Source: a virus. From it: a stretch of 21,064 bases of DNA. Where the stretch lies: IMG/VR virus record IMGVR_UViG_3300025141_000950, positions 1-21,064 of that record. One strand, written 5' to 3'. Under the pieces are notes generated by a model. The model saw only the letters and a list, made by a program, of their open reading frames with translations, made no database searches and was not told where the DNA came from. Position 1 is the stretch's first letter, and every line of letters starts with the position of its first letter. The position numbers and the translations under genes were made by a program. Below, in pieces: positions 1 through 16,844 of this stretch.

Positions 1-49
1 TTTTAAGGGTGGTAAGCCGTGATTTCATTTTTTCCATATTAATTGACAT
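1..49 (-). CDS. 5' end of a gene running out of the window (possibly ssDNA-binding protein)
   Basis: Sixteen codons are visible, starting at the ATG at 47-49 and open to the window edge; they read MSINMEKMKSRLTTLK. A Shine-Dalgarno sequence (GAAGGA, 61-66) sits 11 nt upstream and a sigma70-like promoter lies about 60 nt further up. A short Met/Lys-rich start ending in L-x-x-L-K is reminiscent of gp32-type single-stranded DNA-binding proteins of T4-like phages, but this is a weak memory-based resemblance over 16 residues. What is well supported is only that a translated gene begins here. Confidence 0.5.
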   Translation of the reverse strand, partial: MSINMEKMKSRLTTLK

Positions 50-106: not shown

Positions 107-136
107 AATATATCATATTTATTATTTATTTGTCAA
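107..136 (-). promoter_or_regulatory. sigma70-type promoter for the gene leaving the left edge
   Basis: On the minus strand there is a perfect -35 TTGACA (131-136), an 18-nt very AT-rich spacer, and a -10 TATATT (107-112). The -35 overlaps the stop codon of the tubulin-like gene. Transcription would start near 100, leaving a leader of about 50 nt before the ATG at 49. It differs from the motif upstream of the virion genes, so it may be an early or host-polymerase promoter. Confidence 0.6.
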
Positions 137-981
137 GTATTTTTTTCACTTTCTTGAATAAGTGTGCTATTGGATAGACAATAAACATAAGGTTGTTCGT
201 AGTTCGTTGAATATATTCCATAGCTGATCTTCATCTTATCATGTTCTGTATTTTTTTTAATGTGTTTTTTAATTTTTTTCATCAGAGTCCCGTCTGATTC
301 AATTGCTTCTTCTGGGTATGCATAATAGTATTTTTTCTCTCGGGGCATCTGGAGGTCGAAGAACATTTTTTCATTTTCTTCTTCAATATTCACCAGGCCA
401 AAGGTGAATATTCTTGCAGTCTCTATCGGCTGAGAGAAGTTATCCAACACAGAATTAGAATTATCAAATACATTAATCATATGCATCGTAGAGGCGATGG
501 CTTCATTCAAATAATTATAATGTTCTTTTATTGGGACATCTCCAACAATTTCTGTTAGTAGTGCATTGTCGACAAGGTAAGCCCTTTTAAGGGCTGCTGA
601 GCGCGCGTATTCTTGTAATACGTGGAAAACTACGTTCTCTTGCGGTTTTTTTGTTTTAGGTAATAGGCTTAAGTCTGGCCTTATATATAAAACACTAATG
701 TTGTCTGCTTTGATTTTTATTTGTTCTAAAATACGCAACAAAGCACCAGATATATCCCCAGAGCTTGTAATAAATAACACTTCATTACTCACCTCCTTCA
801 AAAATGTCTTCAAATTTGGACATTTAGATTCGTAAAGCTCTGGATGATTTTGATGCCTCATTGCGTATGAGTTGGCCTCTTTCAAGCCAACATCTATCTT
901 ATAAATTTTATATTGAGGGTATTTTTTGAATTTTTCTGCGATATTGCAGCCAGCTTGGCCTAAGCCAATTATTGTTTTCAT
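133..981 (-). CDS. divergent tubulin/FtsZ-superfamily protein
   Basis: 282 aa. The N-terminus IIGLGQAGCNIAEKF (residues 4-18) matches the first strand and T1 glycine loop of FtsZ/tubulins. A strand follows (EVLFITSSGDISGALL, 67-82) where FtsZ has its GGGTG[T/S]G nucleotide box; here it is SSGDISGA (73-80). Next come a strand ending VLYIRPD (97-103), like the FtsZ segment before the long helix, and a strand-plus-loop RAYLVDNALL (133-142), like the FtsZ VIPNDRLL segment, then a helix like H7 (158-171). The protein is shorter than FtsZ (about 380 aa) and closer to phage PhuZ (about 315 aa). Known phage tubulins form filaments that position DNA or a phage nucleus. Whether this one binds GTP or polymerises is unclear given the altered glycine box and no clear T7-loop catalytic Asp. 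Its start has an AGAGGC ribosome site and lies 9 bp after the 120-aa gene. Confidence 0.72.
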   Translation of the reverse strand: MKTIIGLGQAGCNIAEKFKKYPQYKIYKIDVGLKEANSYAMRHQNHPELYESKCPNLKTFLKEVSNEVLFITSSGDISGALLRILEQIKIKADNISVLYIRPDLSLLPKTKKPQENVVFHVLQEYARSAALKRAYLVDNALLTEIVGDVPIKEHYNYLNEAIASTMHMINVFDNSNSVLDNFSQPIETARIFTFGLVNIEEENEKMFFDLQMPREKKYYYAYPEEAIESDGTLMKKIKKHIKKNTEHDKMKISYGIYSTNYEQPYVYCLSNSTLIQESEKNT

Positions 982-990
982 TTTGCCTCT

Positions 991-1353
991 TTACTTTCGT
1001 TGATTAATTTCTTCTGCGGCCTTGTCGGCCATGGAAAGACCTCTTCTGAGAGACATCTCGGCGGTGGCTTCTGTTTCTATAAAAGATTCAATTAGTGCCT
1101 TAAGATGTTCAAAAAACATAATTTTTTCCGGGCCAGAAAATTGCACTTGATGGGTCATGATAATCTGCGCCATTGCCTGCATAGATCCTTGCACAGATCC
1201 GCCCGGTTTAAGCTTTTCTAATCCCGCGGGAGTTTGTGGGGCGCCCACTCTTTCTTGCTCGCGCGGTTCTTCAACATCAAAAGGCCCTTCGTTGAGCACT
1301 GCTGCGACTTCCTCTTTAATTATTTGTTCAAGTATTTGTCTAGAAAGTTTCAT
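991..1353 (-). CDS. 120-aa protein with capsid-targeting-like N-terminus
   Basis: Function not recognised. The first 22 residues form an amphipathic, Glu-rich helix (RQILEQIIKEEVAAVLNE, 5-22) followed by Gly and a Pro/Glu-rich linker (23-50), then a helical C-terminal half (55-118). In T4, short N-terminal sequences ending in a (L/I)-x-E site target internal proteins into the prohead and are cut by the gp21 protease; here I12-K-E14 and L20-N-E22 fit that rule. This makes a virion-internal or scaffold-associated protein possible, but this is inference. The ATG has a strong AAGGAG site 11 nt upstream. The gene sits between the polymerase and the tubulin-like gene in the same transcription direction. 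Confidence 0.8.
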   Translation of the reverse strand: MKLSRQILEQIIKEEVAAVLNEGPFDVEEPREQERVGAPQTPAGLEKLKPGGSVQGSMQAMAQIIMTHQVQFSGPEKIMFFEHLKALIESFIETEATAEMSLRRGLSMADKAAEEINQRK

Positions 1354-1370: not shown

Positions 1371-1382
1371 TTATAATTAGTT
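1371..1382 (-). promoter_or_regulatory. variant copy of the shared nACTAtTTAtwA motif
   Basis: The minus strand reads AACTAATTATAA, overlapping the polymerase stop codon and ending 17 nt before the ATG of the 120-aa gene. It is almost identical to the copy at 19551-19562, which has the same distance to a start codon. That spacing leaves little room for a leader, so a promoter role is less certain here than for the longer-spaced copies. Confidence 0.3.
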
Positions 1383-2571
1383 AATGAACGTTTAATCTTT
1401 TCATCTCGCCATAGTTTTTTCCAGCCGAACTATTCACTTTAAACTTGCCGAATTGTGTATTTTCAAATTTTTCTTTAAGTTCATTTAGCAAATATTGTTC
1501 TTCTTCGGAGAAATCAATTACAAGAGAATCATGCATACAAAATGCAATGTAAGACTTTTTGCCTTTGAGCAATTTCCAAACTTCAATCATTTGCCGAAGA
1601 AACAAATCAGCTGCCGTTGACTGAATGATGTAATTTAATGCGTGATGTGCGTCCGCTTCAATCTCTCTATTAAAATATGTTTTTACATTAGTTCCGTCCC
1701 AATGCTTATTTAAAAGTTCATTTCTATCATATGCTTTGCTTGAGAGAGCATCTTTTGATTCTGGATTGTACAGCCAAGCAAATATTCTTTTCTTTGCTTC
1801 TTCTCGCGTGCCAGTTCCGTTATATACATTTTTCAAATTCCACTCATGTATATCTTCTTTTGGTTGTTCTTTCCCTGACAACCCAAGCATTACACGAAGC
1901 TCTGCCGCATTGTAATCAAACTCTAAAAACCAATCGTTGTTTGGTTTGAGAATTTTACGGTAAGATTTATCCATTGTTAGGATAGGAAAAGAATTTGAAT
2001 ACGCGGCTAAGCGTCCAGTTTTTGTTCGAAAGGAATCATATTTTATATAAGGTGCAATTCTTTTTATTTTCTTTACAAAGCGGCGTACTTTAAACTTATG
2101 AAGCTCTTTGCTCAACTGTGTTGCATCTACATTTAATTTTTTATTTTTAATCTCAGTCAAAACTTTTGCTAGGCCCAATAAGTAATCATAGTTTTGTGGC
2201 TTTTCATATGTGTTAAAAACATGAGCGCATATTTTATTTTTGATTTCTGCATAGTCGATTAAAAAACTTTGCGGAACCATATCATAAAAACAATGCTCGT
2301 TAAGATCTAACTCTGCTTCCAAAACAGATCTGTAAAAAGCTTTTAGTTTGTTGCTTACCTTTTCCCAATCTTTTTTTAAATAGTCTGGACAAACTTGGTC
2401 TAGAGATTTGCCGGCGCAATAAAGTTGGGCACATTCGACATCTTTATCTACCAAAAATTCTGAGTATGACCAAGTTTTAGTTAGTTTGGAAGGCGGTTTT
2501 TTGAAGAAAAGCTTTCCTTTGGCGTATAATGCAACACATCTTTCTTTATCATCAAATGTTTGGAACAGCAA
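1381..2571 (-). CDS. short family A DNA polymerase (polymerase domain only)
   Basis: 396 aa. Family A landmarks are clear: RTKTGRL (182-188) corresponds to the conserved TGRL region; motif A is FDYNAAELR with catalytic Asp219; motif B (O-helix) is R256-x3-K260-x3-F264-x3-Y268, aligning position by position with Taq R659/K663/F667/Y671, but with Asn269 where Gly is usual; NYIIQSTAADL (313-323) matches the conserved QGTAAD segment; motif C is HDS with Asp348. Klenow-type enzymes are about 600 aa and T7 polymerase 704 aa. The N-terminal 180 residues show no 3'-5' exonuclease DxE or YxxxD motifs that I can see, so the exonuclease is absent, degenerate or encoded elsewhere. The start is TTG with AGAGG 5 nt upstream; it follows the 563-aa gene by 8 bp. 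It should catalyse template-directed DNA synthesis in phage replication or repair. Confidence 0.88.
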   Translation of the reverse strand: MLFQTFDDKERCVALYAKGKLFFKKPPSKLTKTWSYSEFLVDKDVECAQLYCAGKSLDQVCPDYLKKDWEKVSNKLKAFYRSVLEAELDLNEHCFYDMVPQSFLIDYAEIKNKICAHVFNTYEKPQNYDYLLGLAKVLTEIKNKKLNVDATQLSKELHKFKVRRFVKKIKRIAPYIKYDSFRTKTGRLAAYSNSFPILTMDKSYRKILKPNNDWFLEFDYNAAELRVMLGLSGKEQPKEDIHEWNLKNVYNGTGTREEAKKRIFAWLYNPESKDALSSKAYDRNELLNKHWDGTNVKTYFNREIEADAHHALNYIIQSTAADLFLRQMIEVWKLLKGKKSYIAFCMHDSLVIDFSEEEQYLLNELKEKFENTQFGKFKVNSSAGKNYGEMKRLNVH

Positions 2572-2579
2572 AGCAACCT

Positions 2580-4271
2580 CTAAGACCAGTCTAAAATCAT
2601 TTCTTCTGGTTCTGGCCGCGAAACATATATATCTTGTATTTCGGGCATTTTGTGTTTTGTCACTCCATTAATATACTCTACGGCCTGATGAAAGTCAAAT
2701 GATTTACGTAAAAAATTAATTTTTTTCATTTTCTTCTTATATTCCGCCGGCTTAAATTTTATTTTATTTTCAAAGATTCGAATGTCAAAATAAAATTTTA
2801 ACCAAAAAAGATCTCCATATTGAGATTTATATTTGCGCCATTTGATATCTTGAACCTCTTTGTGTTCAACAACTTTTGTTTTAAAGCCGTTTTCAACACA
2901 GCCTACAGTACGAATTTTTTTAGTATATGGATTTTTATTAATCCAGCTTTTCCAAAATTGCCAAACCATCCTTCGCAAATCCCAAGCATCTTCCAAGTGT
3001 GCCTTGCTATAGTACCTTTGAAAAAAGAAATCTAATTTCATGATTCTAGTTGGGCAAATTGTGCCGTCGCAATCTGGCACCAATACCATTTTCTTTTCTA
3101 CTTGGTCGGTTTCGTCTATCGTGACTTCGATTTCTACTAGATGCATTTTTGGATCCGCAGCCCCCTTCATATTTACTGTTTCCCAAACTCCCGCATTGTC
3201 CGTCGCAATTTCGGCTCTCACTGCCTCTATCTGTTCCAATGTTTCTTTTTGGAAATTTGAAACCTTCTCGGGTGGCCACTTGCCTAGCGGGTTTGGTATA
3301 TCGCCATCGATAATATCATCCACTGTAATTATGCCCGGCGTAATTTCTTCTAAGGCTTCTTTCCTTGCTTGCAAAACTTCACTTTGTCTTGCTTCAATTT
3401 GTGGCCGCTCGAAGGCAATACGCATGTATTCTCTCATTTTATATGATGTAACATCGGCAACTAAACGCCATGGTACATTTCTATCTAAGATGAAGCCATG
3501 CATGCGCGCGGCGCATTTAAAAAAATTAAAATTAGAATCTTCTATAAATTGCTGTTTTGCGCTATCATCATCGTAAGCCGCATCATGAATTTCAATACAT
3601 AAACCAGTCGACAAGGGCGAGGCGTACGTAGTATTCAGTATACCGCTGCGTGTAATTGGAAATTCTGGTGACGCCGTTTTTAAAAACTCAATATAATATT
3701 TTACGAACTTAGAAAAATCATCGATCTCGTCTTTTAAAGAAAAGTTCCTTAAAGTATCATCAGCCGAAGGCAATAATAAATATACCAATGAAAAGTGGCC
3801 CCAATGAAGTTCTTTAAATTGCCTAGCGAGTGGTTGAAAATCAACAAAAGATTTTTTGGGCATGCATTGTCCAATTATTCCGCTTGATTTAATAAATCCA
3901 TTATTAGCCTGAGCAGTGATGTATGACTTGAGATCTTCGAAGGCCTCTGCAACAAAATTAAAAGTTTTCAAATCTATGCCAGAAGATCCTGCACTGTTTA
4001 ATTGTTTCATGGTTCCAACTGATGAAATAAGCCCGCCTTCGAGTGCGGCTGTGCCAACGTCTGTTTTGGGATAGATAAAATCTTTTTCCAAATTAACTTT
4101 GCCATATAAAGGATTGTCATTGATAAAATCGATTGGACGATCAACCCATGGCAATTCGCCATCAGGATACACTTTGTCGTAATAAAGCTTTTTTTGTCTA
4201 AATATTGGCTCAGCCGATAGTGAATTCTTACCTGAGACAACTAATTTTTCTATGTTTTTTTCATATGCCAT
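2580..4271 (-). CDS. 563-aa protein of unknown function, probable virion/baseplate component
   Basis: No family recognised with confidence. The N-terminal half (about 1-290) is mixed alpha/beta with conserved-looking stretches such as FKCAARMHGF and VPWRLVADVTS. A charged helical segment follows (about 290-365, with EARQSEVLQARKEALEE), and the C-terminal half is rich in Trp, Phe and Lys. There are no signal peptide or membrane segments. It lies directly after the hub-like gene (19 bp gap) and before the polymerase, on the same strand, so it was probably co-transcribed with baseplate genes. A baseplate or tail structural role is inferred from position only. Confidence 0.8.
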   Translation of the reverse strand: MAYEKNIEKLVVSGKNSLSAEPIFRQKKLYYDKVYPDGELPWVDRPIDFINDNPLYGKVNLEKDFIYPKTDVGTAALEGGLISSVGTMKQLNSAGSSGIDLKTFNFVAEAFEDLKSYITAQANNGFIKSSGIIGQCMPKKSFVDFQPLARQFKELHWGHFSLVYLLLPSADDTLRNFSLKDEIDDFSKFVKYYIEFLKTASPEFPITRSGILNTTYASPLSTGLCIEIHDAAYDDDSAKQQFIEDSNFNFFKCAARMHGFILDRNVPWRLVADVTSYKMREYMRIAFERPQIEARQSEVLQARKEALEEITPGIITVDDIIDGDIPNPLGKWPPEKVSNFQKETLEQIEAVRAEIATDNAGVWETVNMKGAADPKMHLVEIEVTIDETDQVEKKMVLVPDCDGTICPTRIMKLDFFFQRYYSKAHLEDAWDLRRMVWQFWKSWINKNPYTKKIRTVGCVENGFKTKVVEHKEVQDIKWRKYKSQYGDLFWLKFYFDIRIFENKIKFKPAEYKKKMKKINFLRKSFDFHQAVEYINGVTKHKMPEIQDIYVSRPEPEEMILDWS

Positions 4272-13409: not shown

Positions 13410-16400
13410 TTAATCTTCAAAAGAAGCGCCAGAGCTTGTAATAATAAAATCAAGCGCAATAAACTCAATTGCTCTAGCAGGTTTCAAGAAGATCTTAGCA
13501 TACATAATATTTCTATCAACCATTTCTGGAGTGGTTGTAGTCTCGTCCAAGATTAATTTATAATCAGTCAGACCGTAATTTACTCTAACATCATTTAATA
13601 TTTTGTCGACATGTCCTGAAAATCCATTCCATGTATCTTTAACGTTTTGCTCAAATAAGGTCTGCGAAGCAACTCTTGAAATTTCCTTTTTGAGGAAAAT
13701 CAACAGTCGTCGAACGTTAATTCTATCAAGCGCTGATGCTGTTAGCTGTAAAGTTTTTTGACCAAAAATTACAAGACCTTCCGCGGGGAACGAAGCAATC
13801 GGATTAACATTAACATCATAAAGCTTGTCTCTTTGTTTCGAAGTTAAATGTTGACGTACGCCAGTGACCGTAAGGCCGCCGGCTCCAGTCGCAGTTAAAC
13901 CGCCTCGTGAAAATCCAGCTGGTGCAAACCAAACATCTTTTACGGCTTCACTATATGCCATAGCACCCAAGGCAACAACAGAAGGAGGACACCAGAACAT
14001 CACTCCAGATTGTCTATCCTTAACTTGAACCCATGGATAATATGCAGCACCATAACTTGAATCAAGTTCGCGGTCCTTCATGGAATTTACGGCCTGATCG
14101 ATATCGCCTAAACGAGTTGCGTCGTCACTAGTATTTTCCGTGTCGGGAACAAAGTCATTTTCAATATCAATAATTGCTAATGCATCTGCGCGCTCTTCAC
14201 AAGTTCTTACAAGGCGTTCTGTAATTTTTCTATTAGTTACGCCAGGAATTGTCATTAAATTGCATTCAACTTGTTCTGGATCTCGTACTACATCAATCGC
14301 TCTCATAAGAGTGTGATAAGCATAGCTTAGTTTTTCGTCGCCATCGTCGCTGGCCGCGGCCAAAACATCTTGATTTCTAAATGGTTCTCGCTCTTTAATA
14401 TCTAAGCCGTCGAAACCGCCATAGAAAACAGTTGTAAACTTATTGATGCCTGCAGCAGAAGCAGTCAGGAGATTGTTTGTACCGCTTAATGCGGTCCAAG
14501 AAGTTCCTAATTGGCGGCTACCGCTAACATAATGGAATCTCTTAGTATTGTTATCATAACCAACATCATCCAATGTAAAAACCCAAGAACGTTCCGCATT
14601 GACATAATCAACTGGGCTATCAACGATATCAAATGCATCTTTTGTTTGGCCCGGCAATGAACGTGCAGCATCTTTAACACTGTTTTCAAAGCGTATATTT
14701 CCTGCTGCAGCCTTTGTAGTGTCTGCTCCAAAGTATGCCTTCGTATCATCAACTATGCCGCCCTCAGAAGCACTAGTTCGGAGTGCTATTGCGGGAAATT
14801 TGAAGCTTCCTGTAAAGTCAAAGTTTCCAACATGTACACCATCACCAGCGTGTCTGGATGCACTAACATGACATTGCGAGATATCGCCGGCTGCTTCTAC
14901 AAATGTTGCAGCGGGGGCTGTGAGTCCAGCAAATTTTCCGAATGTACTTCCGCTTTTAATGGTAAATCCTCTAAATCGGATTGGACCATAGGAACCAAAT
15001 GGCATGTGCTCTCGTGTCGGGCTGTCTTCGTGCACTACAACTCTCATAAATTTGGAAACATTGTCATAGTCACCATGATAATCTACACGTCTATCTGTAG
15101 TGTTCCATGTGGTAAACTTTGTACCGATTCTTCGTCCAATATAATTTGGCGAGGAAGGATTCATATTAAGATTTGAATACTTTTCGATAATCTGCTTGCT
15201 CTTATCACTATCAGCAATTCTGCGGAGTTCAACTGCAAATGTTGGCCAGGTTTTGTCTGATTTCGCAGGTTTAATATCAATAATCGAAACCTTTAAATTG
15301 TTTTGGTTCCATTCGCCCGTGTCCATAGCAACAAATCTAAACAATCTTTTAGCTCTATCTTGATCTAAACCATCATAATCATTTGCGGTATTCGCAATAA
15401 CATTTCCAAGATCTTGAGAAATAATCCAGCCAGTTTCAGCATTGATGGATTCTTTTCTTTGTTTACTGTATTCATATTGTGTCGCGCTTCCGGAAGAAAG
15501 TCCCAAAACGACACCAAAGGCTTTTCCGGCGCCGGTTCCAGTTAGTGTTTCGGCAACTGATCTTTCGAAAGTTTCTCCAAGCCAATATTTCTTTGTTGTA
15601 GAGTAAATATTTGAATTTGTCAGCATTGGATTAGTATTGAATACCTTTCGAATATATTTATCTGAAGAGGGATCGAAATTAAATGATGTATCAATAATTT
15701 TGCTTTTATCCGTGTCTTTTAGCATGATTTTAAATTCAGTAGTTGCGCCTGAGCCGCCCAAACTTTGAACCAGGACACAAGAGCCTGAAGTTGGTCCGCC
15801 ATTTGTGTCGCCATCATTTCTTTGACTACCTGTAAGTTCAACTGTTCCTTGATCCATGTACCAAACAGCGGCGAGAGTACCTGTTAAAGCTGCCTGAGCG
15901 TTGTCGACGCCGCCAGCAAATGCGCCAATGGTGACAGTGAAGTTCTCCGCGGACATCGCGGCGGAGGCGCCGGGGAGAACATTCTCTAGTGTCATTCCCT
16001 GCGCGCTGGCATCCGCGGATCCGGGCAGGCCAGTGATTGTTAGTGTACCGGCGTGGCCGTTGGCGTGCTCAATTGCAGCTTTTAACACGCTTAAAAATGT
16101 GTATTGATTGTCGCCACCAGTTATATTGATACCAACAGCCACCGCTTTAGATGCGCCGGAAGTAATTGTATGGGTTGTACCAGTGTTAACGTTGTCGGTT
16201 TCACCACTTATAAGTACGGTACCACTACCTTGGCCGCCGCCGGCACCAGTGTCTGATGCGACATAATCTATTTTTGTACCAACACCATCAGTGATGGTAA
16301 TGTAATCACCAGATGATACTGCCATTGTGGCGTGACTAGCGGCAAGAGTGCCTTGAGCGACATTAATTGTTCCTGTTGCTTTGGCGCCCATCGAACCAGA

Positions 16401-16844
16401 CGCAATAACAAAAAGTCCATATGCACCACCAGAGGTCCCGTCATCTCCGATGTCGGGACTTACTTGTTTTGTCGTATTCCAACCGGCCAATCCTTTATTG
16501 GTAAGAGTGGCATCAGCTAAGCTATGTTCCTTTCCTAAAAGTCGGACAAACGTTATGGGGCTGTTATTTCGTAAATATGCTTGTGCGGCAAAAGCGCCAT
16601 ATGTTGGGCCTGAATAATTACCATTTCTCCAAACATCATCTGCTTTTCCGCCGGGGATCGGATCACCAAATATTTCAGTAAACTCTAAAAATGAATTAAC
16701 TGTAACCGGCTTCATTGCTGGGCCGCGTTCTGCGCGTCCAATGATTACCGGTCCCATTTTAACCGGTACGGCCGGCAGTTGGGATTGATCAATTTCGTCA
16801 ATAAAAACCCCGGGCGAAACAAACTTAAATTTATTAACAGACAT
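13410..16844 (-). CDS. tail sheath protein, gp18-like, with large insertion
   Basis: 1144 aa, far longer than T4 gp18 (659 aa). The N-terminus SPGVFIDEIDQSQ...VGPVIIGRAERGPA (10-43) and EFTEIFGDP (54-62) are hallmark sheath motifs, and the C-terminal domain contains RINVRRLLIFLKKEISRVA, FEQN and a final beta strand IEFIALDFIITSS, the part that makes the contractile mesh. Residues about 150-315 are Gly/Ala/Thr-rich beta sequence with a D-G-x-G-T-x-I-D-Y and L-x-x-A-I-x-H-A-N pattern that does not belong to the sheath core; a second less certain insertion (about 640-790) also looks beta-rich. The protein surrounds the tube and contracts on infection. A GAGGAG site precedes the ATG; the upstream motif and 79-nt gap suggest separate transcription. 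Confidence 0.92.
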   Translation of the reverse strand: MSVNKFKFVSPGVFIDEIDQSQLPAVPVKMGPVIIGRAERGPAMKPVTVNSFLEFTEIFGDPIPGGKADDVWRNGNYSGPTYGAFAAQAYLRNNSPITFVRLLGKEHSLADATLTNKGLAGWNTTKQVSPDIGDDGTSGGAYGLFVIASGSMGAKATGTINVAQGTLAASHATMAVSSGDYITITDGVGTKIDYVASDTGAGGGQGSGTVLISGETDNVNTGTTHTITSGASKAVAVGINITGGDNQYTFLSVLKAAIEHANGHAGTLTITGLPGSADASAQGMTLENVLPGASAAMSAENFTVTIGAFAGGVDNAQAALTGTLAAVWYMDQGTVELTGSQRNDGDTNGGPTSGSCVLVQSLGGSGATTEFKIMLKDTDKSKIIDTSFNFDPSSDKYIRKVFNTNPMLTNSNIYSTTKKYWLGETFERSVAETLTGTGAGKAFGVVLGLSSGSATQYEYSKQRKESINAETGWIISQDLGNVIANTANDYDGLDQDRAKRLFRFVAMDTGEWNQNNLKVSIIDIKPAKSDKTWPTFAVELRRIADSDKSKQIIEKYSNLNMNPSSPNYIGRRIGTKFTTWNTTDRRVDYHGDYDNVSKFMRVVVHEDSPTREHMPFGSYGPIRFRGFTIKSGSTFGKFAGLTAPAATFVEAAGDISQCHVSASRHAGDGVHVGNFDFTGSFKFPAIALRTSASEGGIVDDTKAYFGADTTKAAAGNIRFENSVKDAARSLPGQTKDAFDIVDSPVDYVNAERSWVFTLDDVGYDNNTKRFHYVSGSRQLGTSWTALSGTNNLLTASAAGINKFTTVFYGGFDGLDIKEREPFRNQDVLAAASDDGDEKLSYAYHTLMRAIDVVRDPEQVECNLMTIPGVTNRKITERLVRTCEERADALAIIDIENDFVPDTENTSDDATRLGDIDQAVNSMKDRELDSSYGAAYYPWVQVKDRQSGVMFWCPPSVVALGAMAYSEAVKDVWFAPAGFSRGGLTATGAGGLTVTGVRQHLTSKQRDKLYDVNVNPIASFPAEGLVIFGQKTLQLTASALDRINVRRLLIFLKKEISRVASQTLFEQNVKDTWNGFSGHVDKILNDVRVNYGLTDYKLILDETTTTPEMVDRNIMYAKIFLKPARAIEFIALDFIITSSGASFED

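Follow-up and report, generated by a model that had tools for sequence, protein, structure and literature searches.

Two groups of phage tubulins have been described, TubZ and PhuZ, and both are GTP-driven filaments (PMC7950403, PMC7824862). TubZ, which occurs on plasmids and in phage c-st (2xka, 4ei7), acts in segregation together with TubR and a centromere, tubS (PMC7950403). PhuZ, or phiKZ TubZ (3r4v, 3zbp), is a protein of about 300 aa encoded in a large phage genome, and that of phage 201phi2-1 has an intact GGGSGSG box in its sequence and a catalytic T7 Asp (PMC3678025). In FtsZ, loops T1 to T4 touch the phosphates, T6 helps to hold the guanine, and hydrolysis is driven by a pair of T7 aspartates supplied by the adjoining subunit (PMC8936486); the longitudinal protofilament interface of tubulin and FtsZ is built from T7 and S9 together with the base of H8 (PMC3678025). 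FtsZl1 is a divergent FtsZ-tubulin family in which some canonical elements could not be found (Makarova and Koonin 2010, PMC2875224).

The window, i.e. the whole 21,064-base stretch analysed here, is one entire virus record, and the gene under study lies at its edge. The reading frame that the first-pass annotation had marked at 133-981 is intact, lies on the minus strand, starts with ATG and encodes a 282-aa protein, called Z below. Upstream of Z the window carries T4-type tail genes (tube, sheath, baseplate), a 563-aa protein, a family A DNA polymerase (PolA) and a 120-aa ORF. The features referred to below are as follows.

2..49, minus strand: gp32-type single-stranded DNA-binding protein (SSB), first 16 codons MSINMEKMKSRLTTLK, then the end of the record; resembles the SSB start of relative L063
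107..136, minus strand: promoter-like site in the Z-SSB gap, TTGACA-18-TATATT, 11/12 match
133..981, minus strand: Z, predicted tubulin/FtsZ-fold protein, 282 aa (AlphaFold2 model, CetZ Z-score 24.4, Foldseek to FtsZ E 9.5e-13)
412..462, minus strand: residues 174-190 of Z, where the T7 loop and H8 would be expected; acid not conserved, and the models show no helix
481..483, minus strand: H167, invariant His of H7 (100% of 130 family sequences)
505..507, minus strand: N159, early H7, presumed guanine contact (93% of 130)
565..567, minus strand: N139, Asn of T6, presumed guanine contact (92% of 130)
598..615, minus strand: QEYARS, residues 123-128; Q123, R127 and S128 invariant (100% of 130)
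742..765, minus strand: T4 loop SSGDISGA, residues 73-80; lacks one residue relative to the long form of the family, GGSGxISGA
937..966, minus strand: T1 loop GLGQAGCNIA, residues 6-15 (hhalign to FtsZ T1; conservation in 130)
991..1353, minus strand: ORF of 120 aa that separates PolA from Z; confined to the window and its close relatives
1381..2571, minus strand: PolA, polymerase domain only, 396 aa (Pfam DNA_pol_A, E 2.6e-17)
2788-2761 and 2698-2670, minus strand: promoter-like sites upstream of PolA, TTGACA-16-TAAAAT and TTGACT-17-TATATT, respectively

The structure of Z was predicted with AlphaFold2 from a 58-sequence alignment (pLDDT 93.3, pTM 0.91), and the model was searched against the PDB with Foldseek, which returned FtsZ (E 9.5e-13) and TubZ (E 1.5e-12). 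Structural realignment gave Z-scores of 24.4 for CetZ (3.0 Å over 259 residues), 23.5 for TubZ, 22.4 for FtsZ and about 21 for tubulins. The matches cover residues 1-282 and therefore include both domains. A model of L094, a GGSG-type relative that belongs to the family's other half, has a pLDDT of 94.5 and CetZ as its top match (Z-score 24.5), so that GTPase domain, core helix H7 and C-terminal domain are all found in both models (residues 1-282 and 1-281, Z-scores about 24). The first-pass annotation had read the protein as tubulin/FtsZ-like and had called for structure prediction and a fold search, naming another Rossmann-type fold as the outcome that would speak against it; both were run on Z, and no such fold was seen. 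Since the model matches the superfamily over its full length, the tubulin-fold idea survives and, judged by these predicted structures, Z belongs to the tubulin/FtsZ superfamily as a divergent member carried by phages. The strings quoted in support of that reading all occur in Z (GLGQAGCN at residues 6-13, VLFITSSGDISGA at 68-80, VLYIRPD at 97-103, RAYLVDNALL at 133-142), the long helix claimed for it is formed by residues 151-173 of the model, and by model and hhalign their order is that of T1, S4-T4, S5, S6-T6 and H7 in FtsZ and tubulins.

The closest structural match, archaeal CetZ (3zid, 4b45), aligns with Z over both domains (Z-scores 23.5-24.4, 3.0 Å, 259-265 residues) at 14-16% identity; Z differs in being about 50 residues shorter, in its T4 box and unconserved T7 acid, and in its phage replication context. 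TubZ matches in fold (Z-scores 23.4-23.5) and likewise sits on mobile elements, but its partners are TubR and tubS, whereas the neighbours of Z are PolA, SSB and RecA. PhuZ resembles Z in size and in being a tubulin of large phage genomes, and the GGGSGSG box and T7 Asp of the 201phi2-1 protein set the two apart; PhuZ chains were not among the structural matches listed for Z, which is uninformative either way. The nearest viral structural matches, the BFVD entries A0A6J5RW92 and A0A8S5UFG9 from uncultured phages (TM 0.77 and 0.66, respectively), are FtsZ-like by annotation, longer than Z (452 and 387 aa) and 12-16% identical to it. FtsZl1 keeps the GTP-binding signature and has no recognisable T6-H7 or C-terminal domain (PMC2875224); Z is its opposite, with a degenerate T4 and recognisable T6, H7 and C-terminal domain. 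The marks of FtsZl1 and FtsZl2, namely GGGTG(S/T)G, inserts and C-terminal extensions (PMC2875224), do not fit Z, which lacks both the signature and an extension.

At the sequence level Z is much harder to place. As a single query it gave no useful match in Pfam, PHROGs or the PDB sequences. At E <= 1 it drew no match from a collection of 50,697 phage records, in which PhuZ as query found 141, and so showed no sequence relationship to PhuZ. A profile of 58 members matched only SirA in the PDB sequences, weakly; that protein is unrelated and was set aside. The Pfam family matched by most members is PF00091 (Tubulin), weakly so (16/58, best E 0.0048); the best score in whole-record searches, about 13 bits, does not reach its curated cut-off of 33 bits. 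Aligned with hhalign to 27 FtsZ sequences, the Z family matched from end to end of the GTPase domain and paired T1, T4, T6 and H7 in order (E 2.4e-4, score 38.6, probability 44%). The real score compares with 15.9 +/- 2.8 (maximum 24.8) in 150 column shuffles and with a maximum of 37.5, reached once, in 100 block shuffles, and the profile similarity of Z to FtsZ thus appears moderate. A global hhalign run against FtsZ gave a meaningless alignment and was discarded. The pairing of HMINV in Z with the FtsZ T7 NVD, which hhalign proposed at the cost of a 10-residue gap in H7, was rejected because both AlphaFold2 models keep HMINV inside a continuous H7. Another Rossmann-type fold unrelated to tubulins, which the silence of the single-sequence searches might suggest, is barely credible given a full-length two-domain match at a Z-score of 24 in two independent models, the weak PF00091 matches and the shuffle-tested FtsZ profile match.

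Profile scans of IMG/VR confirmed 389 loci with Z at first and at least 588 in a second round, so Z is not a chance ORF. A working set of 130 sequences, the window protein plus 129 distinct full-length relatives, was drawn from 169 loci; sampled pairs are as low as 29% identical, and the contigs reach 204 kb. No second, canonical tubulin that might serve as a hydrolysing partner was found in 14 large, perhaps incomplete records, where all PF00091 matches fell below the cut-off. No published description of the family was found in the open-access literature. The sole bacterial-genome match (L107, CP070664.1) lies in a WOR-3 MAG that serves as a GTDB species genome, in a phage stretch of about 5 kb flanked by runs of N within a cellular 'chromosome' sequence; an integrated bacterial copy or host gene was rejected on account of these flanks, which point to a scaffolded phage contig, and L107 is probably a phage contig scaffolded or binned into the MAG by artefact.

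Within the predicted nucleotide pocket, T1 is retained as GLGxAGCxI (G6 99%, G8 100%, A10 88%, G11 97% of the 130) and T3 is shortened in the hhalign alignment. The signature GGGTG[TS]G is absent from the family's T4, which keeps some of its glycines. A longer, GGSGxISGA-like form occurs in 78 of the 130 and a form shorter by one residue, T-S[SC]GxISGA, in a clade with 52 members, the window protein among them; on the tree the deletion is a single event (support 0.989). The glycine box that the first-pass annotation called replaced is indeed degenerate in the window, but this is a derived one-residue deletion, and the 78 others carry a form nearer the canonical one. N139 in T6 and N159 in H7, which we take to be the equivalents of tubulin's guanine contacts, were found at the expected alignment positions in 92% and 93% of sequences, respectively. 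Most lineages thus probably bind a guanine nucleotide through T1, the shortened T4 and the T6 and H7 asparagines.

The T7 side is altered as well. The segment after H7 is of equal length in all 130 sequences and, in line with the missing T7 Asp noted in the first-pass annotation, no position in it is acidic in more than 66% of them, a level reached at position 187. Neither AlphaFold2 model has a helix between H7 and S7, the place of H8 in FtsZ, so that the superfamily's arrangement of T7 catalytic acid(s) followed by H8 is not found in Z. Thus Z aligns with FtsZ (PF00091) in T1, T4, T6 and H7 and, unlike it, falls below the Pfam cut-off and has neither GGGTG[TS]G nor a conserved T7 acid nor, in the models, H8. 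Because the T7 acid is unconserved and H8 has no counterpart, canonical GTP hydrolysis by the inter-subunit mechanism is unlikely, although another residue, e.g. position 187, could provide the acid. The earlier expectation of unusual nucleotide use agrees with what the alignment and models suggest: a degenerate T4, an unconserved T7 acid and no H8, next to mostly retained guanine asparagines. Polymerisation is still allowed, since FtsZ with a truncated, non-catalytic T7 loop gave GTP-bound filament crystals (PMC8936486), and by analogy Z may polymerise with a non-catalytic T7 side.

The pocket itself appears to have been given up repeatedly. N139 is absent from 10 of the 130 members and N159 from 9 of these same 10, while none of the 120 that retain N139 has lost N159 (table 120/0/1/9; Fisher 4.5e-13, a statistic that ignores descent). 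T4 carries a Gly-to-Glu change, G75E, in 9 of the 10 N139-less members and in none of the 120 others, and T1 positions 10-11 are often altered in the former. A tree built without the trait columns requires three changes, and with these columns left out an origin in one clade was rejected (AU p 0.0015). In the pocket-less lineages E51, Q123, R127, S128 and H167 are unchanged, the gene keeps its place and the operon is intact. As the pocket residues vanish jointly and others stay constrained, three independent lineages have apparently lost nucleotide binding as a unit, though general relaxation in fast-evolving lineages could also remove pocket residues jointly. A dynamic filament that, like PhuZ or TubZ, places or segregates phage DNA and hydrolyses GTP by non-canonical residues would agree with the shared fold, with the mostly retained guanine Asn and with the way in which known phage tubulins act (PMC7950403). 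We consider it improbable, because T3 and T4 are shortened, the T7 acid is unconserved, H8 is missing from the models, and a GTP-driven motor should not survive in three lineages that keep gene and operon without a pocket. A DNA-positioning filament, as proposed in the first-pass annotation, is possible, though one without the parts for GTP-driven dynamics.

The gene neighbourhood is strongly conserved. PolA lies directly upstream of Z in 125 of 132 testable loci found via Z, and a gp32-type SSB and RecA/UvsX, assigned by Pfam, lie downstream in 121 of 124; the SSB of L063 matches Pfam gp32 at E 2e-15. Because these loci had been found through Z, the test was reversed: Z lies downstream in 79 of 79 loci found by PolA alone (among the best 80 PolA matches). 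In most loci the start of Z touches or overlaps the PolA stop. Promoter-like sites (>=10/12) occur upstream of PolA in 43% of loci, compared with 5% after shuffling, and between Z and SSB in 42%, compared with 2.5%, the loci being partly non-independent; before Z they occur in 12% versus 6%, a weak difference. Sites are thus enriched around the pair and not clearly before Z, which makes PolA and Z look like one unit apart from SSB-RecA. The site at 136-107 (minus strand) that had been described as a phage-edge promoter is present, but it is directed at the next gene, the gp32-type SSB.

Z belongs to the core genes of a single clade of uncultured T4-like myoviruses. The nearest cultured phages, judged from PolA, RecA and sheath, are Microcystis phage Mel-JY01 and Flavobacterium phage immuto, in which PolA, SSB and RecA follow in the same order with genes other than Z between PolA and SSB. 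Since these outgroups lack Z, Z as such is not a requirement for replication by the PolA/SSB/RecA set. The Mel-JY01 protein in the matching slot (WWT39336) was considered as a tubulin and rejected, its N-terminal half matching S-adenosylmethionine lyase. In two cultured outgroups (L183:1346-1801, L182:23675-24064) the slot after PolA holds a small protein with a conserved ILVHRKKESNT[LM]YTIN stretch.

Anti-host genes are usually variable. That Z acts as a decoy, capping or poisoning host FtsZ and so blocking division, is quite improbable: an FtsZ-like fold whose T7 side is non-catalytic might, in principle, cap a filament end, but the similarity of Z to FtsZ is only moderate, and Z is among the core genes of its phage clade (79/79 among the best 80 PolA matches) and fixed beside PolA, gp32-type SSB and UvsX/RecA. 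A static scaffold or accessory fits better than a GTP spindle or decoy, because Z is core, PolA-coupled and without hydrolysis apparatus, and its pocket is dispensable in three lineages. From the computed fold, residue patterns, synteny and parallel losses we infer a part in replication, so that Z may be a relative of tubulin that became a permanent component of viral DNA replication; the tie between Z and PolA is an association of adjacent genes.

Our preferred reading, to which we give an even chance, is that Z is a non-hydrolysing, possibly oligomeric tubulin-fold scaffold of the phage replication module, with a nucleotide that is structural and a pocket dropped in three lineages. Z would be made as one unit with a pared-down family A DNA polymerase, whose gene it mostly follows directly, and in most lineages would hold a guanine nucleotide as a structural element. 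Without T7 acid and H8 it would not turn over GTP by the inter-subunit route, and as a scaffold it would organise the phage polymerase and the ssDNA-recombination proteins (gp32-type SSB, UvsX/RecA); three lineages would dispense with the pocket. More tentatively, Z might be an obligatory tubulin 'pseudo-GTPase' scaffold of the replisome, non-hydrolysing and nucleotide-free in several lineages, where G75E would place a carboxylate near the phosphate site.

The invariant residues of Z are Y24, E51, Q123, Y125, R127, S128, H167, Y218 and Y261. By fold topology, Y24, Q123-S128 and H167 would lie toward the T7-side end, facing a would-be neighbour. This topology bears on a doubtful though conceivable alternative, a monomeric replisome accessory, nucleotide-sensing or purely structural, that would form a 1:1 complex with PolA (or SSB) and no polymers. 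The contact or overlap of Z with PolA in most loci, the pocket dispensable in three lineages, and the altered region of the longitudinal interface (PMC3678025), with H8 missing from the models, would all suit a monomer; yet the invariant residues, mostly toward the T7-side end by topology, could equally be a polymer interface. On the scaffold reading Z would be a third phage tubulin group, widespread in uncultured phages, missing from the searched cultured-phage collection, Pfam and PHROGs, and sitting in a replication module, not in a segregation or spindle system. The three parallel pocket losses, with other residues frozen, would amount to a natural experiment on a GTP-free tubulin fold, and the question whether the fold works without GTP is directly testable on these small (~280 aa) proteins.

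Several observations concern the neighbouring genes. The PolA motifs in the window are DYNAAELRV, TREEAKKRIFAWLY and HDS; the enzyme, at about 396 aa, has no recognisable proofreading domain, and its motif C reads HDS instead of HDE. In relatives a separate 5'-3' exonuclease gene lies slightly past the RecA gene. A protein of 465-563 aa precedes PolA in nearly all loci (window 2580-4271, minus strand; L063:5372-6769); it has no Pfam match, and its position is as conserved as that of Z. The module border is mixed, since tail genes sit upstream of PolA. The 120-aa ORF at 991..1353 has no match in Pfam or PHROGs. Its start, MK[LI][ST]RxxLxQLIxEE, is common to otherwise unrelated small ORFs (window 991-1353, minus strand; L063:11112-11537; L023; L090; L178), and a similar stretch lies near the C-terminus of Mel-JY01 WWT39336. 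The tail sheath gene (13410-16844, minus strand) encodes 1144 aa, of which only the last ~300 align to most cultured sheaths; the protein therefore carries a very large insert.
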